Shown here in pieces: positions 1-15,671 of a stretch of 64,000 bases of DNA. The translations under genes were made by a program, and so were the position numbers. Source of the stretch: Streptomyces hydrogenans (GTDB taxonomy: Bacteria > Actinomycetota > Actinomycetes > Streptomycetales > Streptomycetaceae); NCBI RefSeq assembly GCF_014656075.1, contig NZ_BNBS01000011.1:1-64000 (forward strand). Direction: 5' to 3'. The notes beneath the pieces are model-generated. The model had not been told where the DNA came from, did no database searches, and was given only the letters and a program-made list of their open reading frames with translations. Within the stretch, counting starts at the first letter, position 1; every line of letters begins with the position of its first letter.

Positions 1-207
1 AGCGGCCTCCGGCTCGGCGGCCGGGGTCTCGGCGGCCGGCTCCGGGGTGGTCTCGACGACCTCGGTGGCCTCGGCGGTCTCGCCGGCGGCCGTCACCGGC
101 GGGCCGGCGGGCCGGGAAGCGGCGCGGCGCCGACGGCGCGGCGGCAGCTTGTCACCGGGGGCGTTGCTGTCGTTGTTGTCGGCGGTCTCGTTGGTGTTTT
201 CGAGCAT
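1..207 (-). CDS. rne: Rne/Rng family ribonuclease, N-terminal fragment
   Basis: The gene runs off the left edge; only 69 codons from the ATG at 207 are present. The fragment is low-complexity: an acidic/Asn-rich start, a PPRRRRR basic patch around residues 22-27, then a Pro/Ala/Glu-rich tract. This resembles the disordered N-terminal extension of Streptomyces RNase E/G, which precedes the S1 and catalytic domains. A GGGAGA sequence about 9 nt upstream could serve as ribosome binding site. The call rests on the fragment plus its place downstream of the DUF2344/radical SAM pair, as I remember it in other streptomycetes. No catalytic residue is visible here. Confidence 0.7.
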   Translation of the reverse strand, partial: MLENTNETADNNDSNAPGDKLPPRRRRRAASRPAGPPVTAAGETAEATEVVETTPEPAAETPAAEPEAA

Positions 208-438
208 GCGGGCGGTTCTCCCGTCACGCTCCCGGGCGCCGCGTCGGATTCCGGTGGCGGCACGGACGCGCGTCGAGCGCGGTGCCGCCGTCCGGGGCGC
301 GGGCGCCGCACGGGAGCTGAATGTCTGGCTCGCCGGTTCCGTACGCCCGATGCGTACGGCCTGGCGAAAGTCTCCTGGTCCATGCGCGGCCCGACCCAGG
401 TGGCTCCCGAGTGCCAGGGCTGCGCTCGACTCCGTCCC

Positions 439-1230
439 CTACGCGGGGCCTGCCTCCGGCGCCGTCGCCGGGGCGGTCGCGGCGGCCGTGGTAGCTGCGG
501 CCGTGACTGCCTCGCGGTCGGGCGCGAGCGGGTCGGTCACCGTGCCGGACTCCTCGTCGAAGAGCCCCTGCGCCAGCCTGGTCACCGCTGCGGGGACCGG
601 CGGCGCCAGGTCGGCCACAGCTCGGAGACCGGACAGGACGTCGTCGGGTCGCACGGCAGGTGTCACGTGCCGAACAACCAGCCGCAGTATCGCACAGGCA
701 TCGTCGGCGGGCCTATCACCCTGGGGATCGCCCTGGGGACGGTCCGCGACGAGCTCGGCGACGGCGGAGCGGGTGTCGAAGGTGCGGATGCCGTTCTTGG
801 TCTTGCGCTGTACCTCGACGGTCTCGGCCGCGAGGAAGGCGTCGACGGCCTTGCGCGCGTCGTCGACGGGGACGCCGTCGAGCCGGAGCTCCCACACGGA
901 GGCGGTGAGCCGGTCGGCGAGGCCGGAGGTGCGGGCCTCCACGGCGTCGGTGATGTCGAGTCCGGCCGGGAGGGACTCGTCGAGCAGGACCCGCAGGGTC
1001 TCCGGGTCGCGGTGCTCGGTGAGGGCGATCTCCAGGAACTCGGCCTCGGAGCCCGTACCCGTGGGGGCGGCGTTGGCGTACGACACCTTGGGGTGCGGGG
1101 TGAAGCCGGCCGAGTACGCCATGGGCACCTCGGCGCGGCGCAGGGCGCGCTCGAAGGCGCGCTGGAAGTCGCGGTGGCTGGTGAACCGGAGGCGGCCGCG
1201 CTTGGTGTAGCGCAGACGGATGCGCTGCAC
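439..1230 (-). CDS. TIGR03936 family radical SAM-associated protein (DUF2344)
   Basis: This 263-residue protein belongs to the DUF2344 family, usually found beside or fused to a TIGR03960-type B12-binding radical SAM protein; here that partner lies upstream at 2176-4104. Its biochemical role is not established. The family start is clear: LRYTKRGRLRFTSHRD followed by GFTPHPK. The C-terminal third becomes Ala/Thr/Pro-rich. The start given is a GTG with no good ribosome binding site. In frame upstream, a CTG at 1272 sits about 8 nt after an AGGAG and would add 14 residues beginning LGKRQPEG, which looks like the N-terminus I recall for homologues, so the true start may be that CTG. Confidence 0.85.
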   Translation of the reverse strand: MQRIRLRYTKRGRLRFTSHRDFQRAFERALRRAEVPMAYSAGFTPHPKVSYANAAPTGTGSEAEFLEIALTEHRDPETLRVLLDESLPAGLDITDAVEARTSGLADRLTASVWELRLDGVPVDDARKAVDAFLAAETVEVQRKTKNGIRTFDTRSAVAELVADRPQGDPQGDRPADDACAILRLVVRHVTPAVRPDDVLSGLRAVADLAPPVPAAVTRLAQGLFDEESGTVTDPLAPDREAVTAAATTAAATAPATAPEAGPA

Positions 1231-1469
1231 CGCCGGTGCGGGCGGCGGGCCTTCGGGCTGTCGCTTGCCCAGTGGTTCTTCTCCTCGGTGCGGGGCGGGC
1301 GCGGTGGCGCTCCGCCCGGAAGTCTCGGGACGTCCCGTGGGCTCCCGCCCGGATCACCCCCGTCGGGCGGGGAGATCTCGGGGGCGGGCGCCGCGCCGGG
1401 GACGTTCGTTGTACTACCCAGAGTACGCGCCCGGGCCACCTCGGGTTCCCCGGCGGGGTCGGCGACGGC

Positions 1470-2105
1470 TCAGCGGGGGCCGCCGAAGAGCGCCGTGCGG
1501 ACCTCGCGGGCGGCGGCGCGGACGGCCCGGGCGACGGTGGCGACCGGCTCCCACACGTACCGGCGCAGCAGGCGGCCGACCGGGGCCAGGATCACCCGGT
1601 GGATCCACACGAGGGGTCGGCCGATCGCGTGCCAGAGCACCCATCGCAGCGCGCGGCCGACGGCGCGGGAGATCTCCCCGGCGACGCGCCAGGCCCAGGC
1701 GAGGGCGGCGCCGACGACGCGCAGGACGGGGCCGAGGACGTACCGCCAGAGCCAGGTCAGCGGGGTCACGAGCAGCAGGTCGACCACCCACCACACGGCC
1801 TTGCCGACCGGGACGAGCACCCACTCCCACAGCCATCGCAGCGGGGTGACGACCAGCAGGTCGACCACCCACCACACGGCCTTGCCGACCGGGACGAGCA
1901 CCCACTCCCACAGCCATCGCAGGGGGATGACGAGCAGGTGGTGGACGAGCCATCCGAGGGCGCGGCCGACGGGGGCGAGGATCCACCGCCAGAGCTGCCG
2001 GCCGCACCAGACGAGCGCGTCCCAGAGCAGTCGGACGGGCAGGACGACCACGAGGGCGACGGCGCGGGCCGCCCCGGTGAGACAGCCCGGGTTTTCCGTG
2101 TTCAT
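1470..2105 (-). CDS. Tryptophan-rich repeat protein, unknown function
   Basis: I do not recognise a named family for this 211-residue protein. It is built from repeated hydrophobic/aromatic segments: three consecutive 27-residue units begin PVG(R/K)A and carry WLVHH or WWVVD, then PLRWLWEWVLV, with degenerate copies either side. About 23 of 211 residues are Trp. Lys, Arg, Asp and Glu are spaced through the segments, so they look like interfacial or amphipathic membrane helices rather than clean transmembrane spans. No signal peptide is seen. The ATG at 2105 lacks an obvious ribosome binding site and lies just after the hairpin that ends the radical SAM gene, so expression may depend on read-through or a leaderless transcript. 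Confidence 0.6.
   Translation of the reverse strand: MNTENPGCLTGAARAVALVVVLPVRLLWDALVWCGRQLWRWILAPVGRALGWLVHHLLVIPLRWLWEWVLVPVGKAVWWVVDLLVVTPLRWLWEWVLVPVGKAVWWVVDLLLVTPLTWLWRYVLGPVLRVVGAALAWAWRVAGEISRAVGRALRWVLWHAIGRPLVWIHRVILAPVGRLLRRYVWEPVATVARAVRAAAREVRTALFGGPR
1761..1922 (-). repeat. 81-bp tandem repeat inside the Trp-rich gene
   Basis: Two copies with a period of 81 bp (27 codons) start at 1761 and 1842. The stretch 1773-1841 is identical to 1854-1922, 69 bases without a mismatch; the 12 bases before each differ at two positions. Protein-level copies continue on both sides but have diverged in DNA. The identity points to a recent in-frame duplication. Confidence 0.9.
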
Positions 2106-2120
2106 GTCGGGAATGACGAC

Positions 2121-2158
2121 GACGGCCCGGCGGAGGGTTTCCCCTCCGCCGGGCCGTC
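2121..2158 (-). terminator. Hairpin terminator after the B12 radical SAM gene
   Basis: A perfect 17-bp stem (2121-2137 with 2142-2158) closes a TTTC loop, 18 bases past the stop of the minus-strand radical SAM gene. No T-run follows, as is usual for streptomycete terminators. It also lies just upstream of the Trp-rich gene's start. Confidence 0.8.
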
Positions 2159-2175
2159 ACCAAGGCGTTACGCGG

Positions 2176-4104
<1,929 letters not shown>

Positions 4105-4156
4105 CTCGAACCTTCGTGAGCTGGCAGGGGGGCGACTCTCAAGCGTACCCCGGTGC

Positions 4157-5680
4157 TCAGCGGCTCAGCGCCGCCCGGATCCCCGGGGCCTCGGCCCGCT
4201 CCCACACCCCCGGCAGCTCCCGCTCGCTCGCCGCGGCGGCCGCCTCCTGGCGCTCGTGGAGAACGCCCCAGGTGAAGGAGGGTTCGCCGGCGGTCTCGGC
4301 CTCGGTGGCGAGGTCGCGGAGGGCGGCGCGGGCGACGACGGCGTCCTGGTGGTCGCCGAGGAGGCTCTGGACGGCCTTCACCCTCTTGGAGAACCGTTTC
4401 GCGGGCTTGCCGAGGGTCGGGGCGGCGGCGTCGGCGGCGTACCGGGCCCGCTTGGCGGCCTTGCGGGCCTCGTGGAGGGCGACGTCCCGCTCGTGGCCCG
4501 GGTCGAGGGCGAGGGCGGGGCCGATCCGGTCGGCGAGCCTGCCGTGGTCGCGGCGGATCGCCCGGGGCAGCGCCTTCGTGGCCTTCTTCCGCGCCCCGGG
4601 GCGCAGCGGCGGGTCGGCGAGCAGGCGGTCGAGGGCGTCGAGGAGCGCGAGGTGGCGGGGCGAGTCGAGGGCGTCGAGGGTGCGGCGGCGGGCCCCGGCG
4701 GAGCGGGCCCGGTCCCAGCGGCGCAGCCGGCCGCGGACCGGGCCGTCGAGCCGCTCGCGGGGCAGCGCGTCGAGCGCGTCGCTCAGCCGGGCGGCCAGGA
4801 CCTCCTGGTCCCGGGCGTGACCGAGTTCACCGGCGAGCCATTTCAGTTCGGCGCCGACCGGGTCGGTGACGTCCCGGTCGAGGACCTTGCGGTAGGTCTT
4901 GAAGGCGCTGCGCAGCCGCCGGCAGGCGACCCGCATCTGGTGCACGGCGTCGGGCAGCTCGCGGCGGACGGCGGGGTCGAGCCGGACGAGCGCGTCGACC
5001 TGTTCGCGCGCGTAGGCGAGGACCGCGGCGCCCGCGGAGCCGTCGTCGGGGGCCGCCGTCTCCTTCTCCGCCGGTCCCCCACCGGTCTCGTGGAGGGCGC
5101 GGGCCAGTTTGGAGGGGGCGTCGGAGGGGTGGACGCCGGCCTTCCGCAGCCGCTTCTCGACGGCGTCGAGGACGGCGGGGTCGGCGTCGTCGGCGAGTTC
5201 GACCTCGATCTCGGTCCAGGCGGCGGTCGCGCCGGACGTCCCCAGGAGGCGGTCGGCGCGGACGGTGTCGACGGACACCTCGGCCAGGACCGTGCCGTCC
5301 TCGTCCCGCAGGTGCCTCACGTCGCGCGAGGAGCGGAGGCGGACGACGGGGACGACCTCGTCGTGGCGGACGCGGGAACGCAGGAGCCCCGCCAGGGAGC
5401 GCGGGAGCTTCTCCGAGAGCGGGGCCCTGAGCTCGTCGCGGACGCCGACGGCGACCGGGAACTTGAGGTGCCAGCCGGCGTCCGACCCGCCGGTGCGGCG
5501 CCGGAGGGTGAGGGAGTCGGCCGCGAGCCGCAGGCCGGGCGTGTCGTAGTAGACCGCGTCCAGTTCGGTGACGCCCTCGCCGGTCACCGAGGCGACGCCG
5601 GCCGCGCGGGTGAGGTCCGGCAGCCGGGTGTCCGCGGTGGCTTCGTACTTCCGCTCGATCTCGCGCTTCGTCTCCGCCAT
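4157..5680 (-). CDS. CYTH and CHAD domain-containing protein
   Basis: The N-terminal CYTH (triphosphate tunnel) domain covers about residues 1-200 and starts with the signature KREIERKYEA (ExExK). The rest, from about residue 230, is a CHAD domain: an alpha-helical, His/Arg-rich domain thought to bind polyphosphate, here with VHQMRVACRRLRSAFKTY and ALHEARKAAKRARYAADAA. CYTH proteins act as adenylate cyclases, thiamine-triphosphatases or inorganic triphosphatases; with CHAD a polyphosphate-linked role is likely, but the exact substrate cannot be read from the sequence. It sits 44 bp downstream of rodA on the same strand, perhaps as the tail of the cell-wall cluster. Confidence 0.92.
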   Translation of the reverse strand: MAETKREIERKYEATADTRLPDLTRAAGVASVTGEGVTELDAVYYDTPGLRLAADSLTLRRRTGGSDAGWHLKFPVAVGVRDELRAPLSEKLPRSLAGLLRSRVRHDEVVPVVRLRSSRDVRHLRDEDGTVLAEVSVDTVRADRLLGTSGATAAWTEIEVELADDADPAVLDAVEKRLRKAGVHPSDAPSKLARALHETGGGPAEKETAAPDDGSAGAAVLAYAREQVDALVRLDPAVRRELPDAVHQMRVACRRLRSAFKTYRKVLDRDVTDPVGAELKWLAGELGHARDQEVLAARLSDALDALPRERLDGPVRGRLRRWDRARSAGARRRTLDALDSPRHLALLDALDRLLADPPLRPGARKKATKALPRAIRRDHGRLADRIGPALALDPGHERDVALHEARKAAKRARYAADAAAPTLGKPAKRFSKRVKAVQSLLGDHQDAVVARAALRDLATEAETAGEPSFTWGVLHERQEAAAAASERELPGVWERAEAPGIRAALSR

Positions 5681-5724
5681 GTTCCGAATCTAACCGCCGG
5701 GGCGGCCCGGCATGCCTCGAAGCG

Positions 5725-6924
5725 TCAGGCCGTCATCGGCCGTTGCGCCCGGATCGACTGGAGCAGTCCGATCGCGACCCAGACGGCGAACATCGAGGAG
5801 CCGCCGTAGGAGACGAAGGGCAGCGGGAGACCGGCGACCGGCATGATGCCGAGCGTCATGCCGATGTTCTCGAAGGACTGGAAGGCGAACCAGGCGATGA
5901 TGCCGGCGGCGACGATCGTGCCGTACAGCTCGGTCGTCTCGCGGGCGATCCGGCAGGCGCGCCAGAGGATGACGCCGAGCAGGAAGAGGATGAAGCCGGC
6001 GCCGAGGAAGCCGAGCTCCTCGCCCGCGACGGTGAAGACGAAGTCGGTCTGCTGCTCGGGGACGAACTGGCCGGTGGTCTGGGAGCCCTTGAAGAGGCCG
6101 GAGCCGAGGAGGCCGCCGGAGCCGATCGCGATGCGGGCCTGGTTGGTGTTGTAGCCGACGCCGGCCGGGTCGAGGTCGGGGTTGGCGAAGGCGGCGAAGC
6201 GGTTGATCTGGTACTCGTCGAGCATGCCGAGGGCGGTGACGAGGACCGCGCCGCCGATGCCGGCGCCGATGAGGCCGAGGACCCAGCGGTTGGAGGCGCC
6301 GGAGGCGAGCAGGACGCCGAGCACGATCACGATCATCACCATGACCGAGCCCAGGTCGGGCATGAGCATCACGATGCCCATGGGCAGGGCGGCGAGCACC
6401 AGGGCCTTGGCGACGGTGCCGTGGTCCGGGTGGAGCTGGTCGCCCGCGTCCACCTTGGAGGCCAGCAGCATCGCCATCACCAGGATGATGGTGATCTTCA
6501 CGAACTCGCTGGGCTGGAGCGAGAAGCCGCCGCCGACCACGATCCACGCGTGGGCGCCGTTGATGGTGGCGCCGAGCGGGGTGAGGACGGCGAGGATCAG
6601 CACGATCGACAGGCCGTAGAGGACCGGCACCGCCCCGCGCAGGGTGCGGTGGCCGAGCCAGATCGTGCCGACCATCAGCGCCACGCCGATGCCGGTGTTG
6701 AGCAGGTGCCGGAAGAGGAAGTAGTACGGGTCGCCCTGGTTCAGCTCGGTGCGGCCGCGGGTGGCGGACCACACCAGGAGCGCCCCGATGAAGGAGAGGG
6801 CGAGCGCCGAGAGCAGGATCGGCCAGTCGAGCCGGCGGAGCACCGAGTCGCGGGCGGTGAGCTTGGCGAGGGTGCCGCGCTCGGGGGCGTACCGGGAGAC
6901 GGAGAAGCCGTGCGGTGCGGACAT
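5725..6924 (-). CDS. rodA: FtsW/RodA/SpoVE family peptidoglycan glycosyltransferase
   Basis: This is a SEDS-family polytopic membrane protein of 399 residues with about ten hydrophobic segments. Conserved signatures include FSLQPSEFVKI and the MPDLGSVMVM segment that contains the probable catalytic Asp of SEDS polymerases. It polymerises lipid II into glycan strands in partnership with the class-B PBP encoded just upstream (4 nt gap). In Streptomyces the RodA-type protein of this cluster is known as Sfr and contributes to spore-wall synthesis. Membership in the mre cluster, rather than the dcw cluster, argues for RodA over FtsW. Confidence 0.93.
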   Translation of the reverse strand: MSAPHGFSVSRYAPERGTLAKLTARDSVLRRLDWPILLSALALSFIGALLVWSATRGRTELNQGDPYYFLFRHLLNTGIGVALMVGTIWLGHRTLRGAVPVLYGLSIVLILAVLTPLGATINGAHAWIVVGGGFSLQPSEFVKITIILVMAMLLASKVDAGDQLHPDHGTVAKALVLAALPMGIVMLMPDLGSVMVMIVIVLGVLLASGASNRWVLGLIGAGIGGAVLVTALGMLDEYQINRFAAFANPDLDPAGVGYNTNQARIAIGSGGLLGSGLFKGSQTTGQFVPEQQTDFVFTVAGEELGFLGAGFILFLLGVILWRACRIARETTELYGTIVAAGIIAWFAFQSFENIGMTLGIMPVAGLPLPFVSYGGSSMFAVWVAIGLLQSIRAQRPMTA

Positions 6925-6928
6925 CGGT

Positions 6929-9115
6929 TCAGTCCCTCCGTCCGTTGGCGGCCGGCGGTCCGGCGAGGGCGGCCGCGCCGTCCTCGGCGGGGTCGACCTT
7001 CTGCGCCTCGGGGTCGTACGGCTTGATCTTCGGTGCGTTGATCGAGCCGTCGGCGTCGATCTTCGGGAGGGCCTTCTGCGGCGTGGGCAGCAGGGCCCGC
7101 TTGAGGTCCTGGTTGCCGGCGTCGTCGAGGCCGTAGAGGGCGTCGTAGATGTTGCGCACGGCGGGGCCGGAGGCGCCGGAGCCGGTACCGCCCTGGGCGA
7201 TCGTCATGACGATCGAGTAGTCCTTGGTGTACGTGGCGAACCAGGAGGTCGTCTGCTTGCCGTAGACCTCGGCGGTACCCGTCTTGGCGTGCATCGGGAT
7301 CTTGTCCTGCGGCCAGCCGCCGAACCGCCAGGCGGCCGTACCGCGGGTGGCGACACCCGCGAGGGCCTCCTCTATCAAGTCCTGCGTCCGGGCGTCCATG
7401 GGCAGCTTGCCGTGGGACTTCGGCGCGATCTCGGTGACCTTCTTGCCGTCGGGGCTGACGATCGCCTTGCCGACGGTCGGGTTGTACAGCGTGCCGCCGT
7501 TGGCGATGGCGGCGTAGATGGTGGCCATCTGGATGGGGGTGACGAGGGTGTCGCCCTGGCCGATGGAGTAGTTGACCGAGTCACCGGCGCGCATCAGGTT
7601 GCCTTCGAGGCAGTTCTCGTAGGAGAGCTGCTCGACGTAGCTGCCGCCGCGCTTGCCGATCTTGCACCAGTAGTCCTTGTTGGCCTCCCAGAAGTTCTGC
7701 TTCCACTTCCGGTCGGGGACGCGTCCGGTGACCTCGTTGGGCAGGTCGATGCCGGTGGCGGCGCCGAGGCCGAACTGATGGGCCGTCTTGTAGAACCAGT
7801 CCTTGGCGTCGGCCTTCGGCTTCATCCCGCCGTCCTTCTGCCACTGCTGGTGGGCCAGCGCGTAGTAGACGGTGTCGCAGGAGACCTCCAGGGCGCCGCC
7901 GAGCGTGATGCTGCCGTGGCCCTGGGACTCGAAGTTCTTGAAGACCTGGTTGCCGATGGAGTACGAGGACGGGCACGGGTAGCGCCCGTTGAAGTCGTAT
8001 CCGGCGTTGACCGCGGCCGTGGTCGGGATGACCTTGAAGATGGAGCCGGGGGCGGCCTGGCCCTGGATGGCGCGGTTGAGCAGCGGGAAGTTGGAGTTCT
8101 TGCCGGTGAGGGCCGCGTAGTCCTTGGCGGAGATGCCGCCGACCCAGGCGTTGGGGTCGTAGTCGGGCTGCGAGGCCATGGCGACGATCCGGCCGGTCTT
8201 CGTCTCCATGACGACGACGGCGCCGGCGTCGGCCTTGTAGTTCTCGCTGGTGTTCTTGTCGTACACCTTGCGGGCCTCGACCATCGCGTTGTGCAGCTCC
8301 CACTCGGCGACCGCCTGCACGCGGGCGTCGATGGAGGTGACGACGTTGGAGCCGGGGACGGCGGGGTCGGACTTGGCCTGGCCGATGACGCGGCCGAGGT
8401 TGTCGACCTCGTAGCGGGTGACGCCGGCCTTGCCGCGCAGCTCCTTGTCGTAGGTGCGCTCCAGTCCGGAGCGGCCCACCTGGTCGGAGCGGAGGAACGG
8501 CGAGTCGGTGTCCTTGGCCTTCTCGATCTCCTGGTCGGTGACCGGCGAGAGGTAGCCGAGGACCTGCGAGGTGCGGGACTCGCCGGGGGCCGGGTAGCGG
8601 CGGACGGCGGTCGGCTCGGCGGTGATGCCGGGGAAGTCCTCGGCGCGCTCGCGGATCTGGAGGGCCTGCTGGGTGGTGGCCTCGTCGGTGACCGGGATCG
8701 GCTGGTAGGGCGAGCCGTTCCAGCAGGGCTTGGGCGTCTTGGAGTCGCAGAGCCGGATCTTGTTGATGACGTCCTCGGGCTTCATGTCGAGGACGCCGGC
8801 GAGCCGGGTGAGGACGGCCTTGCCGTCGTCCTTCATCTTCATCAGCTCGGTGCGCGAGGCGGAGACCACGAGGCGGGTCTCGTTGTCGGCGAGCGGGACG
8901 CCCCGGGCGTCGAGGATGGAGCCGCGGACGGCGGGCTGGACGACCTGCTGGACGTGGTTGTTCTTGGCCTCGTCCGTGTACTCCTTGCCGTTGCGGATCT
9001 GGAGGTACCAGAGCCGGCCCCCCAGGGTGAGCAGCAGCGAGAAGACGAGGATCTGGATGACGACGAGCCGGGTCTGGACCCGGGGGGTCCTTCCGGTCTC
9101 GGGGATGTTGCTCAT
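6929..9115 (-). CDS. mrdA: Penicillin-binding protein 2 (class B transpeptidase)
   Basis: A 728-residue membrane-anchored D,D-transpeptidase. One N-terminal transmembrane helix (about residues 17-37) precedes the PBP dimerisation domain and the C-terminal transpeptidase domain. The catalytic motifs are all present: SIFK with Ser near residue 358, SVNYS (SxN), and AKTGTAEV (KTG). It cross-links peptidoglycan during elongation or sporulation with its cognate RodA. It lies 19 nt downstream of mreD and 4 nt upstream of rodA, so the five genes are very probably one operon. The C-terminal tail beyond the transpeptidase is short and acidic. Confidence 0.94.
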   Translation of the reverse strand: MSNIPETGRTPRVQTRLVVIQILVFSLLLTLGGRLWYLQIRNGKEYTDEAKNNHVQQVVQPAVRGSILDARGVPLADNETRLVVSASRTELMKMKDDGKAVLTRLAGVLDMKPEDVINKIRLCDSKTPKPCWNGSPYQPIPVTDEATTQQALQIRERAEDFPGITAEPTAVRRYPAPGESRTSQVLGYLSPVTDQEIEKAKDTDSPFLRSDQVGRSGLERTYDKELRGKAGVTRYEVDNLGRVIGQAKSDPAVPGSNVVTSIDARVQAVAEWELHNAMVEARKVYDKNTSENYKADAGAVVVMETKTGRIVAMASQPDYDPNAWVGGISAKDYAALTGKNSNFPLLNRAIQGQAAPGSIFKVIPTTAAVNAGYDFNGRYPCPSSYSIGNQVFKNFESQGHGSITLGGALEVSCDTVYYALAHQQWQKDGGMKPKADAKDWFYKTAHQFGLGAATGIDLPNEVTGRVPDRKWKQNFWEANKDYWCKIGKRGGSYVEQLSYENCLEGNLMRAGDSVNYSIGQGDTLVTPIQMATIYAAIANGGTLYNPTVGKAIVSPDGKKVTEIAPKSHGKLPMDARTQDLIEEALAGVATRGTAAWRFGGWPQDKIPMHAKTGTAEVYGKQTTSWFATYTKDYSIVMTIAQGGTGSGASGPAVRNIYDALYGLDDAGNQDLKRALLPTPQKALPKIDADGSINAPKIKPYDPEAQKVDPAEDGAAALAGPPAANGRRD

Positions 9116-9134
9116 GCTGCCGGTGCCCCCTCGG

Positions 9135-9803
9135 TCACAGTCGCTTGACTCCCTTGATGCGTCCGGCGCGCGTCGCGCGGGCGCGGGCGGACTTGACGCG
9201 CAGTCCGCCGCGCTGGGTGCCGATCCTCAGGCCGGTGCCGGAGGAGAGCCAGCCGGAGGAGACGTCGGTGCCGCCGGAGCCGGTGGCGTCGGCGACCGGG
9301 TCGTTCTCGGCGCGGCGGGCCAACGCCATGATGAGCGGCACCGTGAAGGGCGCCAGCAGCAGGTCGTAGATCACGGCGGTGAAGAGCAGCGAGCCGAGGC
9401 CGACGTGGCGGGCCGCGGTGTCGCCGACGAGGGCGCCGACGCCCGCGTAGAGCAGGGTGGAGCCGACGGCCGCGCCGACGACGGCGGCCATCGGGCCGAC
9501 GGCGGAGGTGAAGCGGCCGTTCTCGGGCCGGACGAGGCCGACCAGGTAGCCGACGACGCAGAGCACCAGGGCGTAGCGGCCGGCGGCGTGGTCGGCGGGC
9601 GGGGCCAGGTCGGCGAGGAGGCCGGCGGAGAAGCCGACGAGCGAGCCGGTGACCGGCCCGTGGACGAGGGCGAGGGCGACGACGGTGAGGAGGACGAGGT
9701 CCGGTACGGCGCCGGGGAGCTGGAGCCGGGCGAGGACGGAGACCTGGACGACGAGCGCGACGACGATCAGGGTCGCGGAGAGGAGGATGCGGTTGAACTT
9801 CAC
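9135..9803 (-). CDS. mreD: Rod shape-determining protein MreD
   Basis: A 222-residue integral membrane protein with about five or six hydrophobic segments, matching MreD, which links MreC to the elongation machinery. The GTG start overlaps the mreC stop by four bases (GTGA), indicating translational coupling. The C-terminal region from about residue 160 is hydrophilic and ends in a strongly basic tail (RVKSARARATRAGRIKGVKR) that probably lies in the cytoplasm. The family diverges fast, so position between mreC and PBP2 is the main support. Confidence 0.9.
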   Translation of the reverse strand: MKFNRILLSATLIVVALVVQVSVLARLQLPGAVPDLVLLTVVALALVHGPVTGSLVGFSAGLLADLAPPADHAAGRYALVLCVVGYLVGLVRPENGRFTSAVGPMAAVVGAAVGSTLLYAGVGALVGDTAARHVGLGSLLFTAVIYDLLLAPFTVPLIMALARRAENDPVADATGSGGTDVSSGWLSSGTGLRIGTQRGGLRVKSARARATRAGRIKGVKRL

Positions 9804-10834
9804 GGTGTCGCGTCCCCCTGGTCGTTCGGGTTCTCGTTCTGCGGCTGCTGCTGGTCCTGGGCGGGCTTCTCGGCCTGCCCCGTGAGCGGCTGGTCGGCCT
9901 TCTCCCCCTGCGGCTGCTCGCCCTCGGCGGGCGGCTTCGCGGTGACCGTGACGGTGACGGTCGGCGCGGGCTTCGGCTTCTGCGGGAGCACCGTGTCGCG
10001 CGGGTCGGAGCGGGGGGCCTGGACGACGACGCCGACGATGTCGAGCTTGGTGAAGCCGACGTACGGGCGGACGTAGACGTTGCGGGTCAGACCGCCGCCC
10101 GCGGGGTCGACGCGGACGACCTCGCCGACCGGGACGCCGGGCACGAAGGGCTTGTCGGCGCGCGAGCCGAAGGTGACGAGGCGGTCGCCCGCCTTCACCT
10201 TGGCCTTGCCGTTGAGGAGCTGGACCAGCAGCGGCCGGTCGCCCTGGCCGGTGGCGAAGCCGAGTTCGTCGGTCTTCTCCATGCGGGTGCCGACGGTGAA
10301 GTCGGGGTCGTTGGCGAGGAGGACCGTGGAGGTCGACGGGCCGACGGTGGTGACCCGGCCGACGAGTCCGGAGCCGTTGAGGACGGTCATGTCGCGCTGG
10401 ATGCCGTCGCGGGCACCGACGTCGATGGTGACGGTCCAGGAGAAGCCCTGGGCCGCTCCTATGGCGATGACCTGGGCGCCCTTGATGCCGTACTGGCCGG
10501 CGCCGGCGGTCTTGAGCATGGAGTCGAGTTCGCGCAGCCGGTTGCGGTTGCGGTCGTCGCTGCCGAGCTCCGCCTTGAGCTCGGCGTTCTCCTTCTCCAG
10601 GGCGGCGATCCGGGTGTGCCGTTCGCCGGAGTCGCGGACGGCGCCTATGGCGTTGCCGATGGGGTCGACCGCCGCCGCGACGCCGTTCTCGACCGGGCCG
10701 AAGACGGCGGCGGCGGCCTGCCGGGCGCCGTCGACCGGCGACTCCTGGCCGCCGCGGATGTCCACCGTGATCAGCGCGAACGCGACGGCGACCAGCAGCA
10801 CCAGGAGCAGCCGGCTCTCTCGTGTGTCCCTCAC
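9800..10834 (-). CDS. mreC: Rod shape-determining protein MreC
   Basis: A 344-residue bitopic protein: short basic N-terminus (RDTRESR), one transmembrane helix (about residues 8-25), a coiled coil around ALEKENAELKAELG, then the beta-rich extracytoplasmic MreC core. The last 55 or so residues form a Pro/Gln/Glu-rich tail, starting KPKPAPTVTVTVTAKPP, that is probably disordered. I chose the GTG at 10834 because the protein from there matches the normal MreC N-terminus; the frame stays open much further upstream, but that extension overlaps mreB and is not MreC-like. A GGAAGG lies about 15 nt upstream. Confidence 0.92.
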   Translation of the reverse strand: MRDTRESRLLLVLLVAVAFALITVDIRGGQESPVDGARQAAAAVFGPVENGVAAAVDPIGNAIGAVRDSGERHTRIAALEKENAELKAELGSDDRNRNRLRELDSMLKTAGAGQYGIKGAQVIAIGAAQGFSWTVTIDVGARDGIQRDMTVLNGSGLVGRVTTVGPSTSTVLLANDPDFTVGTRMEKTDELGFATGQGDRPLLVQLLNGKAKVKAGDRLVTFGSRADKPFVPGVPVGEVVRVDPAGGGLTRNVYVRPYVGFTKLDIVGVVVQAPRSDPRDTVLPQKPKPAPTVTVTVTAKPPAEGEQPQGEKADQPLTGQAEKPAQDQQQPQNENPNDQGDATP

Positions 10835-10910
10835 GTGCGGCGGCCGTGCCCTTCCTCGTGGTTCGTTGTGCAGATGTTCGTACCGTACGGGCTCGCGCCC
10901 GGCCGACGGG

Positions 10911-11930
10911 TCAGCGGCGCGGCTGGGCGTCCAGGACCTGCTGGAGCGCCTCGAACTCCTCGACGCACTTGCCGGATCCGAGGGCCACCGAGTCCAGCGG
11001 GTCCTCGGCGATGTGGATCGGCATGCCGGTCTCGCGGCGGAGCCGCTCGTCCAGGCCGCGCAGCAGGGCGCCCCCACCCGTGAGAACGATGCCGCGGTCC
11101 ATCACGTCACCGGAGAGCTCGGGCGGGCACTTGTCCAGGGTGGTCTTCACCGCGTCGACGATCGCGTTGACCGGCTCCTCGATGGCCTTGCGGACCTCGG
11201 CGGCCGAGATGACGACGGTCTTGGGGAGGCCGGAGACGAGGTCGCGGCCGCGGATCTCGGTGTGCTCGTCCTGCTCCAGGTCGTAGGCCGAACCGATCGT
11301 GATCTTGATCTGTTCGGCGGTGCGCTCGCCGAGGAGGAGGGAGTACTCCTTCTTGATGTGCTGGATGATCGCGTTGTCCAGCTCGTCGCCGGCCACCCGG
11401 ATGGACTGTGCCGTGACGATTCCTCCGAGGGAGATCACCGCGACCTCGGTGGTGCCGCCGCCGATGTCGACGACCATGTTGCCGGTGGCCTCGTGGACGG
11501 GGAGGCCGGAACCGATGGCCGCGGCCATGGGCTCCTCGATGATGTGCACCTGGCGGGCGCCGGCCTGGGTGGACGCCTCGATGACGGCGCGGCGCTCGAC
11601 GCCGGTGATGCCGGAGGGCACGCAGACCACGACACGGGGGCGGGCGAGGTAGCGCCGCTTGTGGATCTTCAGGATGAAGTAGCGGAGCATCCGCTCGGTG
11701 ATCTCGAAGTCGGCGATGACGCCGTCCTTGAGCGGACGCACGGCGACGATGTTGCCGGGGGTCCGGCCGATCATCTTCTTCGCCTCGGCACCCACCGCGA
11801 GGATCCCGCCGGTGTTGGTGTTGATCGCGACGACGGACGGCTCGTTGAGGACGATGCCTCGACCCCTGACGTACACCAGCGTGTTGGCGGTCCCGAGGTC
11901 GACAGCCATGTCACGGCCGATGAACGACAT
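10911..11930 (-). CDS. mreB: Rod shape-determining protein MreB (actin homologue)
   Basis: A 339-residue bacterial actin carrying the nucleotide-binding signatures DLGTANT (phosphate 1), [11 protein letters not shown] (phosphate 2) and [11 protein letters not shown] (adenosine). MreB filaments organise wall synthesis; in Streptomyces it acts mainly in spore-wall assembly. I start at the ATG at 11930 (MSFIGRDM) because AAGGGG lies about 6 nt before it. An in-frame ATG at 11951 would add MGNKGNF but places that good ribosome binding site inside the coding region. It leads the mreBCD-PBP2-rodA cluster; its promoter should lie within 11931-12080. Confidence 0.96.
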
Positions 11931-12082
11931 GAAGTTCCCCTTGTTTCCCATGGCTGAGGGTGGTGCGGCGAAGAGTTTTCATCGTAGTGCCGCTCACGCG
12001 GATGGCGCGCGCTGGTCCACCTCTGTACTAGGTGACGGTAGGACGCGGCGATCCGTTCCCGGGATTGGCGTTCATATGCCTG

Positions 12083-12110
12083 GGGGCGGCCGAATTCCTT
12101 CGGTCGCCCC
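12083..12110 (-). terminator. Hairpin terminator after ndk
   Basis: A 12-bp stem (12083-12094 with 12099-12110, one G-T pair) around a TTCC loop, about 60 bases past the ndk stop on the minus strand and upstream of mreB. It separates the ndk unit from the mre cluster. Confidence 0.7.
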
Positions 12111-12169
12111 ACCAGGTGCTTCCGTTCGGCTGACGGTGGGTCAGCCGGAACGTCGTGCGGGACCGGACG

Positions 12170-12583
12170 TCACGCCAGGCCGGGGAAGAAGATCTTCAGC
12201 TCGCGCGCGGCGGACTCCTCGGAGTCCGAGGCGTGGATGAGGTTCTCGCGGACGATGGTGCCGAAGTCGCCGCGGATGGAACCCGGGGCGGCGGCGATCG
12301 GGTCGGTCGGGCCCGCCAGCCGGCGGACGCCCTCGATGACCCGCTCGCCCTCGACGACGAGCGCGACGACCGGACCGGAGGACATGAAGCCCATCAGCGG
12401 CTCGTAGAAGGGCTTGCCCTTGTGCTCGCCGTAGTGCTGCTCCAGCGTCTCCTGGTCCAGCTCGCGCAGCTCCAGGGCCGCGAGGGTCCAGCCGGCCTTG
12501 CGCTCGATGCGGCCGATGATCTCGCCGACCAGGCCGCGGCGGACCGCGTCGGGCTTGAGCAGGACGAGCGTGCGCTGGCTCAC
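12170..12583 (-). CDS. ndk: Nucleoside-diphosphate kinase
   Basis: A full-length 137-residue NDP kinase, which transfers the gamma-phosphate from NTPs to NDPs through a phosphohistidine. The family start QRTLVLLKPDAVRRGLVGEI is clear, and IHASDSEESA near residue 114 contains the catalytic-His region. The GTG start has GAAGGAG about 8 nt upstream. It lies 64 bp downstream of the DUF4233 gene in a folC-DUF4233-ndk order on the minus strand. Confidence 0.97.
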   Translation of the reverse strand: MSQRTLVLLKPDAVRRGLVGEIIGRIERKAGWTLAALELRELDQETLEQHYGEHKGKPFYEPLMGFMSSGPVVALVVEGERVIEGVRRLAGPTDPIAAAPGSIRGDFGTIVRENLIHASDSEESAARELKIFFPGLA

Positions 12584-12647
12584 GGGGGGAACTCCTTCGG
12601 GAGGGGTGTGCGGGCCTATGAATCTACAGGGCCCGCCCCGCCCCCCG

Positions 12648-13016
12648 TCACGCAGCGTCAGGCCCTGCGGAGCCCTGGCCCGCGGCGTTCGAGACGGCCC
12701 AGCGGGCCTTGATCTCGTCCACCTTGCGCCCGTAGTGCACCGAGCACCACCACAGGACGGCGAAGACCGCCCCGAGGAAGTACATGACGGGGACGAAGAA
12801 GCCGCTGAGGATCAGCCCGATCTGGAGCGCCCAGCCGAGCTGGACGCCACCGGGGCGGGTGATCATCCCGCAGAGCAGCACGGAGAGGACCATCGCGACG
12901 CCGCACACCCACCAGACGGTGGAGGTGCTGAGGCCGTCGTCCTTCATGGCGACGAGGCCGGCGAAGCCGATGACGAAGAACTCGCCGATGAGCGTGGAGG
13001 AGCAGAGCGTGCGCAT
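12648..13016 (-). CDS. DUF4233 domain-containing membrane protein
   Basis: A 122-residue protein with four predicted membrane helices (FFVIGFAGLVAM, VWWVCGVAMVLSVLLC, LGWALQIGLILSGFF, MYFLGAVFAVLWW) and a polar C-terminus. DUF4233 proteins of unknown function regularly follow folC in actinobacteria. Here it starts 7 nt after the folC stop, so the two are almost certainly co-transcribed. No catalytic motif is visible. Confidence 0.9.
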   Translation of the reverse strand: MRTLCSSTLIGEFFVIGFAGLVAMKDDGLSTSTVWWVCGVAMVLSVLLCGMITRPGGVQLGWALQIGLILSGFFVPVMYFLGAVFAVLWWCSVHYGRKVDEIKARWAVSNAAGQGSAGPDAA

Positions 13017-14648: not shown

Positions 14649-15671
14649 ATGGACATAGGCATCGATCTCGGCACGGCCAACACCCTCCTCTACGCGCGCG
14701 GGCGCGGCATCGTGCTCAACGAGCCGTCCGTGGTGGCGGTCCAGGAGGGCTCCCGGCACGCGCTCGCGGTCGGCGCGGAGGCGAAGGAGACGATCGGCCG
14801 GACACCCGGGTCGATCACCGCGGTCCGGCCCCTGCGGGACGGGGTGATCAGCGACTACGAGGCCGCCGAGGAGATGATCCGGCACTTCGTCCGCAAGGCG
14901 GTGCCGGGGCGCAGGCTCCCCCGCACCCGGATGGTCGTGTGCGTCCCCAGCGGGGTCACCCCGGTCGAGCGACGGGCCATCGTGGACGCCTCGGTCTCGG
15001 CGGGCGCGCGGGCCGTCCACCTCATCGAGGAGCCGATGGCGGCGGCGATCGGGGCGGGGCTGCCGGTCTCCGACCCGCGCGGCTCGATGGTGGTCGACAT
15101 CGGCGGCGGGACGACGGAGGTGGCGGTGATCTCGCTGGGAGGGATCGTCACCGCGCAGTCCCTGCGGGTCGGCGGCGACCGCTTCGACGCGGCGATCACC
15201 GACCACGTCCGCAAGGAGCACTCGCTGCTGATCGGGGAGCGGACGGCGGAGGACGTGAAGGTGGCGATCGGCTCGGCGTGGCCGGTGCCGGGCGGCGAGG
15301 AGTTCGAGCGGAGCGCCTTCACGGTGCGCGGCCGGGAGAAGGTCAGCGGCCTGCCGCGCACGGTGGAGCTGTCCGTGCCGGAGGTCCGCGCGGCCCTGGA
15401 CGAGCCGGTGGAGGCGGTCGTCGCGGCGGTGCGGGCGACGCTGGAGGAGTGCCCGCCGGAGCTGTCCGGTGACGTGATGGAGCACGGCATCGTCCTCACC
15501 GGCGGCGGCGCGCTGCTGCCGGGCCTGGACCTCAGGATGGCCTCGGCCACGGGCATCCCGGTCTTCGTGGCGGACGACCCGCTGGACTGCGTGGCCCTCG
15601 GCTCGGGCCGCTGCGTGGAGGACTTCGACGGCCTCCAGCGGGTGCTGGGCAAGGCGGTGCGGGCCCGTTAG
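14649..15671 (+). CDS. MreB-like rod shape-determining protein (second paralogue)
   Basis: A 340-residue bacterial actin with intact [18 protein letters not shown] and [11 protein letters not shown] nucleotide-binding motifs, clearly paralogous to MreB at 10911-11930. It differs in the RKAVPGRRLPRTRM region, in a longer WPVPGGEEFERSAF insert and in lacking the MSFIGRDM start. It sits alone, away from mreCD and divergent from folC. Streptomycetes carry Mbl and other MreB-like proteins at other loci; whether this is one of those relocated or an additional copy cannot be decided from the window. The ATG at 14649 is preferred, though a TTG at 14640 is possible; no clear ribosome binding site is visible. 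Confidence 0.9.
   Translation: MDIGIDLGTANTLLYARGRGIVLNEPSVVAVQEGSRHALAVGAEAKETIGRTPGSITAVRPLRDGVISDYEAAEEMIRHFVRKAVPGRRLPRTRMVVCVPSGVTPVERRAIVDASVSAGARAVHLIEEPMAAAIGAGLPVSDPRGSMVVDIGGGTTEVAVISLGGIVTAQSLRVGGDRFDAAITDHVRKEHSLLIGERTAEDVKVAIGSAWPVPGGEEFERSAFTVRGREKVSGLPRTVELSVPEVRAALDEPVEAVVAAVRATLEECPPELSGDVMEHGIVLTGGGALLPGLDLRMASATGIPVFVADDPLDCVALGSGRCVEDFDGLQRVLGKAVRAR

Follow-up and report, generated by a model that had tools for sequence, protein, structure and literature searches.

A tryptophan-rich protein, previously undescribed, widely kept in Streptomyces and encoded beside the mre spore-wall genes, is built of a unit that, to judge from its sequence, is like the Trp-helix repeat found in the tape measure proteins of phages. 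We analysed it in Streptomyces hydrogenans, in a window comprising the first 64,000 nucleotides of contig NZ_BNBS01000011.1. The gene (1470..2105, reverse strand; 211 amino acids plus stop, ATG start) stands at the end of the mre spore-wall cluster and belongs to no phage or contractile injection cluster. The best explanation, whose chances we regard as evenly balanced, is a scaffold owned by the cell, with tape-measure-type repeats forming a helix on the membrane surface. The structural side of this reading is fairly well supported, while its function we infer.

The chain would form one long alpha-helix of about 200 residues, some 300 Å if straight and longer in other species, with a slip of roughly one residue in the turn that precedes each proline. 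Because the slip would cancel the drift of the polar face, a single stripe of Arg, Lys, Asp and Glu would run along its length, with most Trp beside the stripe and Leu, Ile and Val filling the opposite side. Such a net positive helix would rest in the interface of the inner membrane, which is anionic, and bury its hydrophobic side there. Since repeat lengths of 27, 11, 38 and 49 keep phase, its length could change without breaking the stripe. Its place at the mre cluster hints weakly that it might scaffold or stabilise the membrane at the site of spore envelope synthesis.

The gene and its 27-residue repeat

The third-position GC content of the gene was 0.96, as in its neighbours. The first-pass annotation had put Trp at about 11% of residues and the repeat at exactly 27 residues, and both values stand: Trp makes up 10.9% (K+R 11.8%, D+E 4.3%), and three units follow one another in register over residues 45–125 (unit 1, residues 45–71, 1893..1973; unit 2, residues 72–98, 1812..1892; unit 3, residues 99–125, 1731..1811; all reverse strand). 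Before them lies an N-terminal part of 44 residues (1–44; 1974..2105, reverse strand), conserved across the family, with a GCL motif and later P, R and W positions; after them comes a C-terminal part of 86 residues (126–211; 1473..1730, reverse strand), a conserved but less regular helix that ends in a basic tail. Across 33 family rows, G20, C21, L22, P40, R42 and W45 (numbered as in member L051) were invariant.

The top lag in the autocorrelation of the protein was 27, exceeding 30 of 30 shuffles, and TRF returned the same 81-bp array. The longest exact direct repeat in the gene was 69 bp (1773..1841 and 1854..1922, reverse strand, period 81), the next with a different period being 11 bp. This repeat had been taken for two units identical over 69 bp of DNA. 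The identity and its 81-bp period are real, but it straddles the unit borders (units 3/2 against units 2/1), which means that a 69-bp identity does not hold for any one unit.

Helical phase and proline

The hydrophobicity spectrum peaked at 92–96 degrees per residue, or approximately 3.8 residues per turn, in all 55 family members, a set in which we trimmed each protein at a start codon of our choosing and from which L047 and L048 (copies, of the L005 and L004 type) were excluded. For 53 of the 55, no more than 10 of 200 shuffles reached as high; L055, with 11, and L039, with 31, were the other two. The window protein itself peaked at 94 degrees with 0 of 200 shuffles as high, which bears out the earlier observation that its charged residues fall at regular positions. 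As a control we used 38 of the 48 other open reading frames of the window, ten being dropped as mostly short or doubtful; three of these peaked at 92–96 degrees and none of the three beat its shuffles. Favoured repeat lags (27, 49, 11, 38, 12 and 15) were near multiples of 3.83, and units of unequal length thus keep phase.

The higher the proline fraction, the lower the peak angle: a regression over 69 related sequences, the 55 members together with 14 tape measure segments, gave r = −0.85, a slope of −92 and an intercept of 99.9 degrees; like the counts over members, it is uncorrected for descent. The intercept is close to the 100 degrees per residue of an alpha-helix. Similar values were obtained for the family alone (intercept 100.2, slope −98) and for the phage set alone (L143, L144, L164–L175; intercept 99.6, slope −81, r = −0.86, n = 14), and a proline-dependent phase may be a general rule for tape measure proteins.

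A model in which a 100-degree helix slips at each proline did better than any uniform angle in 52 of the 55 members. The best slip per proline was 94 degrees (quartiles 90–98), placed 3–4 residues before the proline, and the mean moment was 0.227 with slips at prolines against 0.136 with slips at random sites. Proline leaves the backbone carbonyl 3–4 residues earlier without a hydrogen bond. Among the 11 of 14 phage segments with at least five prolines, the slip model exceeded the uniform angle in three, and exceeded nearly all random sites in ten. We regard as fairly well supported the prediction of a normal alpha-helix that skips about one residue of phase per proline and so keeps one charged stripe.

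On the helical wheel of the window protein corrected in this way, 92% of Lys/Arg and 100% of Asp/Glu fell within one 120-degree arc, a partition that is partly built in because the phase was fitted to hydrophobicity. Measured from the arc centre, most Trp occupied the 40-, 80- and 280-degree sectors, and Pro was confined to one flank; the placement of these two residues weighed little in the fit, although the slip was set relative to Pro. Leu, Ile, Val, Met and Cys lay opposite the charged arc. A continuous polar stripe with a hydrophobic face opposite, the feature of an amphipathic in-plane helix, thus extended over the whole chain. The proline-skip rule predicts the positions of wide turns, which structure determination can check directly.

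Similarity to phage tape measure proteins

Searched by tblastn with the window protein (E 1e-5), a set of 50,697 phage records gave three matches, all inside annotated tape measure genes, with 27–28% identity (E 3e-6 to 8e-6). Eleven of the 33 members matched PHROG 971, a profile labelled endolysin (best E 1.1e-7), with the match limited to profile positions 562–734 of 1338. Tape measure segments match the same region of that profile (8e-38 and 2.4e-51), and we therefore treat PHROG 971 as a tape measure family. The window protein alone matched it at E 0.012, and L050, L067 and P0003 went unmatched. Of the nine PHROGs listed, four others were named tape measure families (1–2 members each, all weak) and four had no description. 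When a wide profile of the family was run over 296 genomes of the class, 29 genomes matched; the non-family matches below 1e-3 were two (G589, 2.1e-4; G408, 7.2e-4), and both fell in tape measure proteins by PHROG search. By eye, the tape measure protein of G408 had no clear Trp repeat.

Profile–profile alignment (hhalign) of the family with the phage segments (the H1 and H2 records plus 12 chosen among 60 listed of 793 records) gave probabilities of 95–97% in four forward pairings (E 1.9e-10 to 9.5e-9), against 0.06–0.08% in six family/phage pairings with one side reversed. When each profile was compared with its own reverse, the phage set reached 40% (E 4.9e-5) and the family 3.8%, so repeats of this sort can score on pattern alone. 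As the alignments were thin (Neff about 2.4) and shared physics could shape both sides, we claim the same kind of repeat and leave common descent aside.

An alternative close to our own is that the protein works as tape measure proteins may do at the membrane stage, with copies bundling into a rod or pore whose charged stripes face each other or the lumen. The shared repeat kind, the similar wheel and a phase of 94–95 degrees, as in segments of two Gordonia phages, argue for it, as do reports, in the accessible parts of PMC10721106 and PMC5099701, that tape measure proteins are oligomers in the tail and are proposed to form channels in the host membrane. We nonetheless think it unlikely, because the match is confined to the repeat region of tape measure profiles, no tail genes lie nearby, and the stripe is rich in Arg where that of the phage segments is rich in Asn, Gln, Ser and Thr.

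The first-pass annotation had placed the protein in no known family, which was correct as far as named domain families go but missed the tape-measure kind of its repeat. Pfam and NCBIfam searches of the window protein up to E 10 returned nothing. Over the 33 members, NCBIfam gave two weak matches (best 0.038) and Pfam gave 11 scattered families of 1–2 members each (best E 0.0028), which we judged to be chance, as we did the one match of the family profile among PDB sequences, a receptor chimera at E 0.17. A plasmid search with P0001 and its relative P0002 had no match, and a pattern search of viral contigs for stand-alone relatives yielded 38 and 2 candidate stretches, none of them a relative. 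We recognised no publication on this protein in a literature search to which most subscription journals were external. Searches by locus number, that of the orthologue not being fixed, found nothing for SCO2601 or SCO2602, and the papers on SCO2603–2605 do not deal with this gene in their accessible parts; a search for Trp-rich repeats and Streptomyces gave nothing relevant by title among the matches listed.

Structure prediction and the membrane

AlphaFold2, run from 15 close sequences, predicted one helix over residues 6–207 (mean pLDDT 84.7, pTM 0.31). A Foldseek search of this model against the PDB gave no match, a single helix carrying little fold signal. The protein had been proposed to consist of amphipathic helices at the membrane surface; the computations support the surface character, but point to one phase-locked helix instead of separate segments. 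A membrane location is probable.

Three of 39 sampled 19-residue windows exceeded 1.6 on the Kyte-Doolittle scale, and the protein may therefore insert into the membrane. These windows, together with its great hydrophobicity, would also suit an ordinary polytopic membrane protein with short spans, in which the periodicity is a by-product. Charges recur every 4–8 residues within the units and on one face, however, no PDB sequence matched below E 0.17, and the Pfam matches were weak and scattered, so we consider the polytopic reading distinctly unlikely.

Distribution, selection and copy number

A scan of genomes by contig gave 16 relatives with a best-segment identity of 67–82%. Within the genus, a narrow profile matched 279 of 392 genomes and the wide profile 152 of 199 sampled genomes. 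We re-inspected ten of the weakest among these 152. Four matches are doubtful: three (G006, G069 and G158) had E values from 6e-6 to 2e-4, and the fourth (G044) lies in a frame of 1605 codons that may be a tape measure gene. In G080, G025, G053, G170 and G050 the best matches were in frames of only 94–199 codons (loci L177, L179–L181 and L183), which may be partial, split or decayed genes. Twelve genomes without a profile match were inspected and all contained the TIGR03936 gene that adjoins the repeat gene elsewhere; none had a family member upstream of it in the fetched stretch (up to 1.5 kb), and in five of them the radical SAM and TIGR03936 genes were about 160–380 bp apart.

Pairwise dN/dS between the window gene and eight relatives was 0.27–0.46. 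This is purifying selection and shows constraint on the protein, and the Trp-rich repeat frame is a real gene. One of the 16 close relatives, L012 from S. diastatochromogenes ATCC 21481 (L030 is this stretch too), has a frameshift after residue 164, at about position 4490, possibly through an assembly or sequencing error. Absence or frameshift in close relatives had been named as what would speak against the gene; the first applies to part of the genus and the second to this single relative. As it is missing in part of the genus, we conclude that the gene is common there but dispensable.

Members ranged from 184 to 439 amino acids over the set of 55, the 40 more distant ones from 242 to 439. 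In the alignment sets, A1 was without L006 (a near-copy of L004) and the frameshifted L012, and A2 had 33 members. A variable copy number had been expected between strains. It does vary across the family, but three core units were kept in 14 of 15 close relatives, the other (L017) having two and being exactly 27 amino acids shorter. Across the window protein and 13 relatives, DNA identity within a protein was 0.68–0.93 between units 1 and 2 and 0.59–0.86 between units 2 and 3, and the middle unit was nearest to unit 1 in certain species and to unit 3 in others, in agreement with the recent expansion proposed earlier. Between species, the mean identity of the middle unit (0.73) was below that of unit 1 (0.83) and unit 3 (0.86). 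This low identity and the shifting likeness of the middle unit indicate that units are probably lost and re-made.

Relatives were also present in two other genera of the same taxonomic family (G570 and G548) and in a second family of the class (f20), where 12 of 35 genomes had one. Of seven f20 stretches, the four that passed a crude filter were tested for phase: three members peaked at 94–95 degrees with 0 of 200 shuffles as high, while L123 was not distinct (45 of 200). No radical SAM or TIGR03936 gene was found in the seven stretches, some of which end at contig ends, and no common gene context was evident among the parts of them that we viewed. A locus recorded as Microtetraspora glauca (L015) has a Streptomyces-type copy with the same downstream neighbour, for which reason its species name is probably wrong.

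Genomic neighbourhood

Downstream of the repeat gene is a TIGR03936/DUF2344 gene (439..1230, reverse strand) and upstream a TIGR03960 B12-binding radical SAM gene (SCO2606-like; 2176..4104, reverse strand). All 36 loci examined, 35 in the genus and one in another genus, have the family gene immediately upstream of the TIGR03936 gene. The radical SAM gene was on the other flank in 28 and absent from the fetched stretch in eight; in two of the 28, L007 and L083, only a 3' piece of it, 23–25 residues long, adjoins the repeat gene. Beyond it follow genes for CYTH/CHAD, RodA/Sfr, PBP2, MreD and MreB proteins and, farther away, a second MreB-like gene. The two MreB-family genes lie on opposite strands (10911–11951, reverse; 14649–15671, forward), and the latter is perhaps Mbl. 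In S. coelicolor, according to the accessible parts of PMC4416010 and PMC4255298, the mre cluster affects synthesis of the thick spore wall. A sporulation role for the repeat protein is a guess from this position, and the link to the mre genes may be accidental, given the absence of the gene in part of the genus and its different surroundings in f20.

A perfect 17-bp hairpin (2121..2158, reverse strand) ends 15 nt before the start codon; the 76-nt stretch containing it folds at −51.1 kcal/mol (z −6.9), and it is perhaps the terminator of the upstream gene. By eye, no clear ribosome site follows it. We dropped a long hairpin as a feature of the family, the consensus of 14 relatives having short stems only (−5.4 kcal/mol). 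After the stop codon is a GTAC-repeat DNA element (1405–1430, reverse strand), a candidate promoter of the TIGR03936 gene; in many longer members the frame reads through GTAC-like sequence into a C-terminal ...RTLGSTT... stretch. A scan of 1200–2300 for sigma-70 promoters and T-tailed terminators, which covers Streptomyces signals poorly, found none, and Rfam at gathering thresholds had no match in positions 1–13000.

Phage phiJoe has its attachment site within the 3' end of the radical SAM gene, at a distance of 74 bp from the gene end, and mobile elements occupy this site in several species, as described in the accessible part of PMC5311408. In the window, approximately 2225–2275 (reverse strand) looks by eye like the published site and appears unoccupied. 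In related loci the gap between the radical SAM and repeat genes is anywhere between about 70 bp and several kb long and holds unrelated genes.

The attachment site directly upstream (PMC5311408, in its accessible part) raises the question of whether the gene is a fragment of the tape measure gene of a prophage, left behind or captured, that is now drifting or disturbs the tail assembly of infecting phages. The 3' remnants in L007 and L083 and the eight loci whose fetched stretch has no radical SAM gene are as expected from insertions, and the gene is absent from some species and decayed-looking in several genomes. A prophage origin of this sort is hard to square with purifying selection, with N- and C-terminal positions conserved over 33 members, or with the failure of the viral pattern search to find a stand-alone relative, and we give it little chance.

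Least credible is that the protein is a cargo or effector of the cytoplasmic contractile injection systems (CIS) of Streptomyces: Tme and Sle1, which function in the formation of spores or in competition, are remote tape measure homologues with additional domains whose genes lie in CIS clusters (accessible parts of PMC11126660 and PMC13277306), but the repeat gene lies elsewhere and has no further Pfam domain, and sheath genes (PF04984, which also matches phage sheaths) were not associated with it: 14 of 21 carriers had them, and so did 13 of 20 non-carriers, both groups being taken from the wide-profile search of 199 genomes. DUF4157 was absent from the Pfam families listed for the 33 members, and the named neighbours in the window were the mre, CYTH/CHAD and radical SAM genes. 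Both this reading and the polytopic one are weaker than the membrane-surface scaffold.

Significance

What is new here is the occurrence of the tape measure repeat in a cell protein that stands alone; the repeat itself is known from phage tails. At 211 amino acids, the window protein is a natural mini-version that could serve as a workable model of it. More speculatively, and with only a small chance of being right in our estimation, a ruler helix of the phage type may have been turned, in filamentous actinobacteria, into a normal cell protein whose in-phase units set the length of a membrane rod during spore envelope formation, under a proline-skip rule shared with phage tails. If so, one proline for one skipped residue would be a general recipe for amphipathic helices, whatever their length.

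Comparison with known systems

Exchangeable apolipoproteins and perilipins are tandem amphipathic helices punctuated by proline, an arrangement they have in common with the window protein, but the apolipoprotein repeat period is 11/22 against 27 here. Neither was among the 11 Pfam families listed for the 33 members at E≤1. With the spore wall synthesizing complex (SSSC), the tie shown is one of gene neighbourhood with the mre genes. Tme of S. davawensis and Sle1 of S. lividans are likewise encoded by Streptomyces hosts and related to tape measure proteins; compared by their descriptions in the accessible parts of PMC11126660 and PMC13277306, they differ from the repeat gene in combining a coiled coil with a functional domain and in lying in CIS clusters.

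A close likeness is to the tape measure repeats of, for example, Gordonia phages Evaa and LittleMunchkin and of PHROG 971, which by our reading share the 27-residue unit, P-V-x-[KD]-A, W at position 8, W-L-W at 20–22 and polar positions 4, 11, 19 and 23. The 14 tape measure segments had phases of 94–99 degrees, near the 92–96 of the family, and their wheel was like that of the family for Leu/Ile/Val and Gly and partly so for Trp and Pro. Published tape measure repeats, in which Trp or Phe marks the unit, have periods of 11 or 18 residues in the accessible text of PMC5099701, whereas the family period is mainly 27. The family proteins are also shorter, at 184–439 amino acids (211 in the window) against over 600, their stripe is charged rather than composed of the uncharged polar residues of the phage segments, and, unlike phage tape measure proteins, they are without tail-gene neighbours and without flanking tape measure or enzyme domains.
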